Assembly (NCBI GenBank): GCA_016795155.1
Contig: JAEUIE010000046.1
Coordinates: 1 to 43,894 of the forward strand
DNA length: 43,894 nucleotides
Direction: 5' to 3'
From: Planctomycetia bacterium
GTDB lineage: Bacteria; Planctomycetota; Planctomycetia; Gemmatales; HRBIN36
The notes beneath the pieces are model-generated. The model did no database searches, was not told the origin of the DNA, and saw only the letters and a program-made list of their open reading frames with translations. This document shows positions 25,380-28,850 of the stretch, one piece after another. Each line of letters begins with the position of its first letter. The first letter of the stretch is position 1. A program made the position numbers and the translations under genes.

Positions 25380-26243
25380 ATGAAATATCTCGTTCGTCAT
25401 GGTGTGAACCGGTTTCTTGGTGAGTTTGAACCTGTTGATGACGCACTCTATCAGCGTTCTCAACATGTAATCATTCAATCGCAACGTGGAACGGAAACCG
25501 GCATCGTGCTGTGTGAAATCGATGATCGCTGCAAGCAGTTCCTGATAGATCCATCTAGCGGAAAAATCCTTCGAACCGTGACAAAAGAAGACCAGCAGAA
25601 ATGCCTGGAATGCATTTCACTCCAAAAGAAAGAATATGATGTCGGGACTGAGATTATTCAGCAGTTGCAGATACCCATAGATCTGGTTGATGTCGAACAC
25701 TTGTTGGGAAATGAACGGATTGTATTTTATTTCCTGGTACGACCGCCAGAAAAGCGCGTGGATTTTCGAGATCTGGTCAAAGAACTGGGACGAGCTTTTC
25801 ACACCAGAATTGAAATGCGACAGATTGGTATTCGGGATGAAGCCAAACTCCTGGCAGATTACGGTGATTGTGGCAAGCCCGTTTGCTGCAATACCCATCT
25901 GACTGTCTTGCCTCCCGTTTCCATGCGGATGGCCAAACTGCAGAAATCGACTCTCGACCCGAACAAGATCTCAGGCCGATGTGGCCGACTCAAATGCTGC
26001 CTGAGGTATGAATTCGATGTTTATGAAGAACTACAGCAACAATTGCCAACCGTTGGCAGCATGGTAGTAACCAAACAGGGCAAAGCCAGAGTACTGGCAT
26101 TGGAACTGCTGGCTCGTAAGTTATTAGTCATGTTGGAAGACAACAGGAAAGTCATGATACCAGCAGAAGATGTCTTAACGGTCCTGCAGACAGAACGTGC
26201 CCAGCGTCATACTGCTGATGACCAGGTGGATGACGAACGATGA
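25380..26243 (+). CDS. PSP1-domain protein, RicT/YaaT-like
   Basis: A 287-residue protein from ATG 25380 (MKYLVRHGVNRFLG). The PSP1 domain shows VIIQSQRGTETGIVL (30-44), IPIDLVDVEHLLGNERIVFYFLV (98-120), and then the family cysteine module: Cys164, Cys169 and Cys170 in GDCGKPVCCNTHL, and Cys201, Cys206 and Cys207 in GRCGRLKCCLRYE. In Bacillus, RicT (YaaT) with RicA and RicF forms a complex carrying [4Fe-4S] clusters, which affects mRNA processing and sporulation. The cysteine set here is complete, so cluster binding is likely. The stop codon overlaps the ATG of the Minf_1886-type gene (ATGA). No RicA/RicF partner is visible nearby. Confidence 0.92.
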   Translation: MKYLVRHGVNRFLGEFEPVDDALYQRSQHVIIQSQRGTETGIVLCEIDDRCKQFLIDPSSGKILRTVTKEDQQKCLECISLQKKEYDVGTEIIQQLQIPIDLVDVEHLLGNERIVFYFLVRPPEKRVDFRDLVKELGRAFHTRIEMRQIGIRDEAKLLADYGDCGKPVCCNTHLTVLPPVSMRMAKLQKSTLDPNKISGRCGRLKCCLRYEFDVYEELQQQLPTVGSMVVTKQGKARVLALELLARKLLVMLEDNRKVMIPAEDVLTVLQTERAQRHTADDQVDDER

Positions 26244-26635
26244 GCGAACCATCACCCCAGCAATTACTGTTGGAACTATGCCGGCGCGATTCACGATATC
26301 CCTTTGAAGCATACGAGTATCTCTTTGCAGCGCTGGGTTACGTACAGCAGGAAATGAAGAAGAGTGGCAAGTTCAAAGATGGGCCTTCACACATTACCGG
26401 GCAGCAGTTGGCCGAAGGCTGCAGGGATTTCGCCATCCAGGAATTCGGCATGATGGCAGGCACCGTTTTTAAATCATGGAATATCCGCTCTACTGCAGAC
26501 ATTGGTGAAATGGTCTATAACCTGATCGATTGCGAACTGATGTCAAAGACCGATACTGATCGCAAGGAAGATTTTCATGATGTTTACGATATAGATCAGG
26601 CCTTTTCACAACGGTACAGCTTTATGCTGGCGTGA
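26240..26635 (+). CDS. Minf_1886 family protein
   Basis: A 131-residue soluble protein. It matches the Minf_1886 family: LCRRDSRYPFEAYEYLFAALGYVQQEM (14-40), HITGQQLAEGCRDFAIQEFGMMAGTVFKSWNIRSTADIGEMVYNLID, and a C-terminal DRKEDFHDVYDIDQAFSQRYSF. The family is widely conserved in the PVC superphylum and has no established function. ATG 26240 overlaps the PSP1 stop codon, so the two are translationally coupled, which suggests a shared process. The last 14 bases overlap the convergent phosphatase gene end. Confidence 0.9.
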   Translation: MSEPSPQQLLLELCRRDSRYPFEAYEYLFAALGYVQQEMKKSGKFKDGPSHITGQQLAEGCRDFAIQEFGMMAGTVFKSWNIRSTADIGEMVYNLIDCELMSKTDTDRKEDFHDVYDIDQAFSQRYSFMLA

Positions 26636-27251
26636 TCATGGCAGGCCAGGTCACATTCAAGCTGATTAAGACAGGCTGTTCATTTTCCACACCGATTAAC
26701 GTAACACCCGCATTGGCAAATTTCATGGTCCGGGCAAACTTCATGGGCAAACCCATTATGTCAGCCACGAATACACGGTTAACAATTTGATGCCCGATTA
26801 CCGCAATCGATTCGCCTGCATGCTGTTTCAGCAGGGAGTGAAACACAGGCCTTACACGTGAAAGCACCTGGTTGAAATTCTCACCCCCAGCATAGCCAAA
26901 GGTGTCGGGGTGATTGATAAACAGCTGATAGGCTTCGGGTTCGTTGGCTTTGATATCAGGCCAGGTGCGATTCTCCCAGCGCCCGACGCTGCCTTCGCGA
27001 AGATCATCCAGTGGTGTAACGGACAGGGCATGTGGCTGTGCAACAATCGAAGCGGTCTGCATGGCTCGCTTCATCGGACTGGAATAGATCGCCCGCAACG
27101 GCACCGATTGCAGCAACTGCTTTGCGCCGAAAGATTGTCTGATACCCAGATCCACGAGCGGTTCATCCACCTCCGATCCCTGAAGTCGGTATGGTGTTTC
27201 GAGATTGAGTCGTGTCGCGCCATGGCGAAGAAGAAACAGACAGGTTTTCAT
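26622..27251 (-). CDS. Histidine phosphatase superfamily (phosphoglycerate-mutase-like) protein
   Basis: A 209-residue enzyme from ATG 27251 (MKTCLFLLRHGATRLN); that ATG overlaps the stop of the upstream HAD gene (ATGA), which fixes the start. The catalytic His10 is in LLRHGAT, with the second catalytic His in SIAVIGHQIVNR, and the acid in LREGSVGRWENRTW. It is a member of the dPGM/SixA/cobC-type branch; the precise substrate (phosphosugar, nucleotide or phosphoprotein) cannot be told. It probably works in the same process as the upstream HAD phosphatase. The gene end overlaps the convergent Minf_1886 gene by 14 bases. Confidence 0.9.
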   Translation of the reverse strand: MKTCLFLLRHGATRLNLETPYRLQGSEVDEPLVDLGIRQSFGAKQLLQSVPLRAIYSSPMKRAMQTASIVAQPHALSVTPLDDLREGSVGRWENRTWPDIKANEPEAYQLFINHPDTFGYAGGENFNQVLSRVRPVFHSLLKQHAGESIAVIGHQIVNRVFVADIMGLPMKFARTMKFANAGVTLIGVENEQPVLISLNVTWPAMITPA

Positions 27252-28093
27252 GAAGTTTGGCCATCCAGAAGCCATCTAAGAAGGAGATCGCTTTGCCGCA
27301 GATCCGGAAGGATGATATCGACCCCTGCCCTGAGCAACTGCTCTTTTCTCCAGGGATTGTATTGGCCAGGCTCGTCATGGTCGTAGGCGATGCCAATAGC
27401 CAGTCCTCCGCGATCTTTGGTCAGCCTGGTTTCGACGTAACCATCACCGATATTCAGAAGAGAAGAACCAGGCGCTTTCTGCCTGCTGAGCATGTCGTCG
27501 CAGGCTTTTGCTTTGGAAAAGCTGCTGGCATCACTTTCCGGCCCTGCAATACCTTCCGTGAAATAATCCACCAAACCAAGGAGCTCCGATTCACTGTGCA
27601 GATCGCGCAAGTCGGTTCCACTGGCCAGTAGCATGGGAATCTGTCTGACTTTCAACTGGTTCAGCATTTCTCTTGAGCCGGGAACCATCCAGGCGTCAGC
27701 CTGCCTGGAATTCAGTATCTGCTGTTTGCGCTGGTTCACCGTGGCTAAAAGCCGTTCCAGGTATCGCACCTTGTACTGGCTCGCAGTTGCAGGAGTGCCC
27801 TGTCGCAACGCCACTTCATCCACCAACGCCTGCATTTGCATGATCGTTGGCTGACCATTCAGCTTCAAAACCCATTCAGTCACTTTGGCTGTCAGATTAT
27901 CCAGAGTTTCGGAGGTTCCCTGCAAAGGCAACAGCTCCTCTACCATCATGGGGATCATGACCTGATCCCAGCCTTCGCGCAGCAGTGATAATGTGCCATC
28001 GAAATCGATCATGGCGACTTTGATGTTTCGCGAATGTAATTCAGGGTTGATGACTTCCGCTTGCAGTTTTTCCGGCTTGTTACTGACATCCAT
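27248..28093 (-). CDS. HAD superfamily hydrolase
   Basis: A 281-residue protein from ATG 28093 (MDVSNKPEKL); an in-frame TTG at 28114 is less likely. Motif I is VAMIDFDGTLSLLREGW, with Asp30 nucleophile and Asp32 acid; motif II is MLLASGTD; and the C-terminal LLNIGDGYVETRLTKDRGGLAIGIAYDHD holds the later acidic motif. The helical region between (about 55-130) is a C1-type cap. It is a cytosolic phosphatase or phosphotransferase of unknown substrate. Its stop overlaps the start of the histidine-phosphatase gene, so the two are coupled. Confidence 0.9.
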   Translation of the reverse strand: MDVSNKPEKLQAEVINPELHSRNIKVAMIDFDGTLSLLREGWDQVMIPMMVEELLPLQGTSETLDNLTAKVTEWVLKLNGQPTIMQMQALVDEVALRQGTPATASQYKVRYLERLLATVNQRKQQILNSRQADAWMVPGSREMLNQLKVRQIPMLLASGTDLRDLHSESELLGLVDYFTEGIAGPESDASSFSKAKACDDMLSRQKAPGSSLLNIGDGYVETRLTKDRGGLAIGIAYDHDEPGQYNPWRKEQLLRAGVDIILPDLRQSDLLLRWLLDGQTS

Positions 28094-28178
28094 CAGGCGG
28101 GTAATCCTTGTCAAAAGAAACTGGACTTTGATCCTTGAGTCATGATAGTGTTAGAGGATAAGTCGGAGTAAAAAACAC

Positions 28179-28850
28179 GTGTCCGCATCCCTGGCAACTG
28201 ACAGGTTTTATCTGGTATCATTTGGCATCAATGGAATGATCGGATGCTTTGCATCATCCGAAACAGACAACGATTACGAACGTGGCACGGAAGTCATGAT
28301 TCAGACCGAACGAGGCAAGGAAAAAGGAGTAATTCTTCGTCAAACTGCCTGGCTGGAGATCGGGTCGCCCACTGTTTCCCTTGGATCTGGCCGCATTCTC
28401 AGCCGATACAATTCATGGCATGAAGTGCCTTTCGAAGAGCATCTTTCACGTTTATTTGAAGGGGCAGGGAAGATCATCCAAACATTATTTCTTCCGGTAC
28501 AGATTGTCGATATTGAACAGATCCTGCATCCGCCAACAATAATCGTTCACATCATTCAGTTCGGTCCTTTTGATGATGTCTCGCTTCGCACCGAGTTGGA
28601 ACGTCGCTGGAATGTCCCGATTCAATTGATGAATCTGACGAACCAGGAGACACTCCTGGAAACACAAGTCGAAACGTGTGGTAACTCGCAGGGGTGTTCC
28701 AGTTGCAGTTCGGGTGGATGTGGCAAGGAAAACTGTGGCAGTGGATTGTGTCACAGCCAGAGTGAATCGCATCAGCATTTTCAGAAGGAATGGCAAAGCT
28801 ACCTGGCAGAGCGTCGCAGCCAGACAGCTTGGAAGGACGATACTGCCTAA
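28179..28850 (+). CDS. Divergent PSP1-like protein with Cys/Gly/Ser-rich tail
   Basis: A 223-residue protein from GTG 28179, with a GGAG about 11 bases ahead. The first 165 residues follow the PSP1 layout: VMIQTERGKEKGVIL (39-53) lines up with the complete PSP1 protein 2 kb upstream, and LPVQIVDIEQILHPPTIIVHIIQFGP (105-130) with its IPIDLVDVEHLL segment. The RicT-type CGxxxCC/CGRLxCC module is missing. In its place is a tail with Cys167, 173, 176, 181, 186 and 191, spaced x5, x2, x4, x4, x4 among Gly and Ser, then His192, 198 and 200. That spacing suggests metal or Fe-S binding. Function unknown; homology to PSP1 is inferred by eye. Confidence 0.72.
   Translation: MSASLATDRFYLVSFGINGMIGCFASSETDNDYERGTEVMIQTERGKEKGVILRQTAWLEIGSPTVSLGSGRILSRYNSWHEVPFEEHLSRLFEGAGKIIQTLFLPVQIVDIEQILHPPTIIVHIIQFGPFDDVSLRTELERRWNVPIQLMNLTNQETLLETQVETCGNSQGCSSCSSGGCGKENCGSGLCHSQSESHQHFQKEWQSYLAERRSQTAWKDDTA

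Follow-up and report, generated by a model that had tools for sequence, protein, structure and literature searches.

Planctomycetia possess an old, class-wide paralogue of RicT that ends in a Cys-rich tail and is linked by co-loss to RicT and to RNase Y. This short protein is probably an unrecognised part of the RNase Y mRNA-processing machinery. RicT is an iron-sulfur protein that steers the cutting of mRNA by RNase Y in Bacillus. Both proteins are encoded in the window, by which we mean the whole stretch of 43,894 nucleotides from a Planctomycetia bacterium that was analyzed here. Literature searches on planctomycete PSP1 proteins, on RNase Y of Gemmata and on YggX and TPR proteins of planctomycetes turned up nothing on the short protein. 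It belongs to a conserved family, named here, whose members can escape the current Pfam and NCBIfam models.

The ricT/yaaT gene lies at 25380..26243 on the plus strand, from an ATG at 25380 (the mechanical ORF begins at TTG 25362), and encodes a PSP1 core followed by the RicT Fe-S module. Its product matches PF04468 (PSP1) at 1.1e-21 in a Pfam profile search and passes the NCBIfam cut-off for NF041131 (RicT_YaaT) with 219 bits against 70. The full RicT/YaaT cysteine set ascribed to this protein in the preliminary description is indeed present. The module C-x4-CC-x30-C-x4-CC (25869..26000, plus strand; residues 170-213 numbered from TTG 25362) reads CGKPVCC-x30-CGRLKCC, identical in its spacing to RicT/YaaT of Firmicutes, across which Cx4CCx30Cx4CC is invariant (PMC6751060). 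Judged by profile and motif, the 25380-26243 product is a bona fide RicT/YaaT. An RNase Y gene was also found in the genome (G000:C3:221900).

The short gene (28179..28850, plus strand) has a GTG start with GGAG about 10 nt upstream. Its product has no match in Pfam or NCBIfam even at E<=10, and is not over the cut-off of either NF041131 or PF04468. The preliminary description had held that the second protein keeps a PSP1 core, and that a profile search without a PSP1 match would count against this. The public profile indeed gives no match; homology of the PSP1-superfamily core is nonetheless apparent in BLASTP against the RicT of the window (E=1e-12, 27% identity over 171 aa) and in profile-profile comparison of the short form with RicT (E=9e-37), and a family profile recovers the protein at 2.6e-54. 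The public Pfam profile misses it because the protein has diverged, forming a long branch of 1.66 changes per site in our tree, and not because homology is absent. By these comparisons the 28179-28850 product is a genuine paralogue of RicT that has diverged from it. The core occupies 28200..28661 (plus strand; approximately residues 8-161), and its fold was mostly confidently predicted by AlphaFold2, with core blocks mostly above 80 pLDDT, followed by a tail at about 50 and then a helix. A PDB fold search with the AlphaFold2 models of both window proteins returned no significant match, and no solved structure was found by sequence. KH-type RNA-binding folds recur among the non-significant PDB matches of both models (uS3, NusA, KH-CPSF, RbfA; best E 0.018), and in these models the PSP1 core may be KH-like.

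Beyond the core, a six-Cys Gly/Ser tail (28677..28751, plus strand; residues 167-191), modelled with low confidence and probably disordered when no metal is bound, leads into a C-terminal helix predicted by AlphaFold2 (28758..28838, plus strand; residues 194-220), whose motif is conserved in Gemmatales. The tail has the six Cys spaced 5, 2, 4, 4 and 4, with three His, just as first described. To survey the tail, 82 distinct short proteins were extracted across the class Planctomycetia. All 82 carry a Gly/Ser/Cys tail; the preliminary description had named its absence from all orthologues as grounds for giving up the idea. Exactly six Cys were counted by script in 62 of the 82, with 5-8 in most others (a few of these counts take in core Cys) and only 2-3 tail Cys in one branch of family f4. 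Cys makes up 20.8% of the tail versus 1.5% of the core, and the Cys tail is kept although the core evolves fast. The Cys spacing varies: in Gemmataceae C-x4-C-x6-C-x2-C-x5..11-C-x4-C is met with most often, tails in this family often open and close with Cx4C (22/82 short forms), and the spacing in the window is atypical. Since the three His are not conserved in orthologues, we dropped them as candidate ligands. The short forms of G002, G006 and G026 are more diverged, and a third PSP1 copy in G182 has no tail in the stretch seen.

A maximum-likelihood tree was built by a quick search from core columns only of 68 short forms and 51 RicTs. A single branch (SH-aLRT 99) divides all short sequences from all RicT sequences. 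We propose a Cys-tailed PSP1 family, defined by a PSP1 core of about 150-165 aa with a Gly/Ser/Cys tail and by its place in a clade apart from RicT; the 28179-28850 product has these features. The short paralogue was seen in the class Planctomycetia and in none of the phylum's other classes sampled, which have, as a rule, RicT only. On the sequences compared, the simplest reading is one old duplication, no later than the base of Planctomycetia, its exact root unsure because the branches are long. The duplication suggested by the preliminary description is thus supported by tree and profiles, as an old event rather than a local one. In G195 (L230, L236, L240) there are four PSP1 matches, including an adjacent pair, which suggests further PSP1 duplications in that genome.

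The short form shares with RicT/YaaT (NF041131; PF04468) the PSP1 core and the first Cx4C of the Fe-S module. The profile-profile alignment spans the core through RicT CGKPxC and ends at its second Cys, before C167. This Cys pair of RicT corresponds to the cluster-1 ligands C161/C166 of Bacillus, and most short forms of Gemmatales have Gly at the position of C167, a cluster-2 ligand. The residue-level match of the short-form motif to CGKPxC is putative, both motifs being short and rich in Cys and Gly. The vicinal Cys pairs, the CGRLxCC half and the two C-terminal helices of RicT are all missing from the short form, which has instead its Gly/Ser/Cys tail and one helix; the window copy lacks the six-Cys RicT module with vicinal pairs and falls outside both curated models. 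Because homology to RicT stops after the first Cx4C, truncation plus elaboration, and not a whole swap, is indicated: the short form looks like a RicT that was cut halfway through its module and later elaborated. The earlier proposals that the second protein lacks the RicT module and has exchanged it for another metal module therefore apply to the second half, which the tail replaces, but not to the first, which is retained in the family. We do not equate the tail Cys one by one with the RicT cluster-1 ligands, as the spacing drifts and the tail is of low complexity.

The placement of the two genes 2 kb apart, noted in the preliminary description, is incidental. A phosphatase gene and a HAD-like gene lie between them on the minus strand, so that ricT and the short gene do not form an operon, and in relatives the two are megabases apart or on separate contigs. 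The pairing is thus without weight, and was rejected as a conserved cassette.

Short homologues occur nearly throughout the order (Gemmataceae and allies; 60 relatives searched), and PSP1 proteins were found in 172 of 199 Planctomycetia genomes, mostly two in each. About 25 of the 199 lack RNase Y (TIGR03319); they fall in several lineages, and almost all of them lack both PSP1 proteins as well. Genomes without RNase Y include G022, G029, G033, G050, G061, G076, G079, G097, G100 and G103. PSP1 and RNase Y occur together in 168 genomes and are both absent from 21, with 4 having PSP1 alone and 6 RNase Y alone (Fisher 2.7e-19, kinship ignored; unlisted negatives were recovered by difference). The four genomes with PSP1 and without RNase Y are 81-89% complete, and among the sampled genomes of 90% completeness or more, none has a PSP1 protein but lacks RNase Y. 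RicT absence in the listed PSP1-negative genomes was checked with NF041131. Joint absence extends over families f2, f3, f4 and f15 (several genera), and both states occur within genus g31, which argues for several independent losses. RicT is found without the short form in family f8 (4 genomes) and in G032, and the short form without a detected RicT in G036 only. Presence is thus nested, the short form within RicT and RicT within RNase Y, as expected of an accessory's accessory. This nesting lends indirect support to a heteromer of the two proteins, which the preliminary description put forward as a possibility. These patterns also provide comparative evidence for the dependence of RicT on RNase Y outside Firmicutes.

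In Bacillus it is RicA and RicF that deliver RicT to RNase Y. Both are needed for the RicT-Rny complex, as are the clusters; Cys residues in the disordered C-terminal tails of RicA and RicF complete the second [4Fe-4S] cluster together with RicT C167 (PMC6751060, PMC10470536). The preliminary description had stated that RicA and RicF are absent, and a search of the window's genome for their domain, Com_YlbF (PF06133), agrees in giving no match; nor does the 28179-28850 product have a Pfam match to Com_YlbF. Control genomes from Thermus, Deinobacterium, Bacteroides and Thermotoga also have PSP1 matches and none to Com_YlbF. Because RicT without RicA/RicF is common elsewhere, and RicT stands alone in other planctomycete classes, the absence by itself calls for no replacement, nor does RicT as such need the short form. 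The flexible, Cys-bearing C-terminal tail of RicA (YmcA) and RicF (YlbF) (PMC6751060) is likened to that of the short form by function alone; no sequence relation between them was found.

Most weight is placed on a RicT-dependent accessory role, because the short form combines a RicT-related folded core with a flexible Cys tail, as in RicA/RicF. The reading that we rank first, and hold tentatively, is that the short form assists the RicT-RNase Y mRNA-processing machinery as an accessory protein whose tail binds metal or an Fe-S cluster. Its core would sit beside RicT, and its tail would bind an Fe-S cluster or metal and offer cysteine ligands. The tail might then do for RicT what the RicA/RicF tails do in Bacillus, completing the second cluster with the vicinal Cys of RicT, and might help RicT to reach RNase Y. 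Here we infer the identity of the metal, the contact with RicT and the role in the hand-off to RNase Y. Several observations weigh against this accessory role. RicT occurs without such a partner in the four f8 genomes and in other classes, and so does not strictly need one. The short gene mostly lies unlinked to ricT, and its neighbour in Gemmatales hints at iron trafficking instead (see below). The wide drift in tail spacing is unlike a fixed cluster site, and the f4 branch is poor in tail Cys. A lineage that lacks RicA/RicF and has a remodelled second RicT amounts to a natural rewiring of the Ric/RNase Y machine. It offers a clean test of whether the part of RicAFT that brings RicT to RNase Y is the cluster-bearing tail, and it bears on the role of Fe-S clusters in this system.

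Ranked second, as a possibility that we consider less probable, is a role as a carrier of iron or Fe-S: the short protein would load or repair clusters, those of RicT included, together with a TPR-Iron_traffic protein, and would not itself belong to the RNase Y machinery as a subunit. In Gemmatales, 45 of 50 distinct loci have a TPR-Iron_traffic (YggX) fusion gene directly upstream of the short gene, on the same strand and often overlapping it; the C-terminal Iron_traffic domain of the fusion scores above the Pfam cut-off (PF04362, up to 3.6e-13). Extra Cys residues were also noted in these fusion proteins. Small TPR genes and biotin synthase recur near the short gene in other orders of Planctomycetia, this Fe-S enzyme in about 11 loci, and a flexible Cys-rich tail would suit a carrier. 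YggX/Iron_traffic thus shares a Gemmatales neighbourhood and an iron theme with the short PSP1 protein, but it is not homologous to it and differs in phyletic pattern: PF04362 does not follow the nesting of short form, RicT and RNase Y, is kept in Gemmatales that lack PSP1 (G019, G022, G029, G033), and is absent from other orders having the short form. Moreover, the main exception to the linkage is the window's own clade, which has left the TPR-Iron_traffic operon; the gene stands elsewhere in the window's genome (57% identity; G000:C32:59216-59815, L139). A broader and somewhat more doubtful proposal is a Ric/Y complex peculiar to Planctomycetia, in which an Fe-S-bridged heteromer of RicT and the short form (RicT') would gate RNase Y, TPR-YggX would supply iron, and RicT' would contribute a Cys tail of the RicA/RicF type.

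It is improbable that the tail is a general zinc/copper or redox-sensing tail of metallothionein type, with the correlation to RicT due only to shared ancestry and lineage-wide gene loss. Strong drift of the six-Cys spacing, the Gly/Ser/Cys low complexity and the three nearby His of the window copy would fit such a tail, but the nesting is one-directional over several lineages, genus g31 shows both states, and six Cys are held in 62/82 short forms despite fast evolution. Least likely of all is that the stand-in for RicA/RicF is the Minf_1886-family protein (TIGR04138; 26240..26635, plus strand, with a 4-bp overlap with the end of ricT) and that the short PSP1 protein has an unrelated role: the gene comes directly after ricT at nearly every Planctomycetia locus examined, but 19 of the 20 RicT-less genomes checked still have it, and it must therefore have a RicT-independent job. 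On the other side of ricT, an Obg/DRG-type GTPase-like gene, named by eye, lies upstream in seven Gemmataceae loci (L183, L184, L186, L187, L188, L190, L191).
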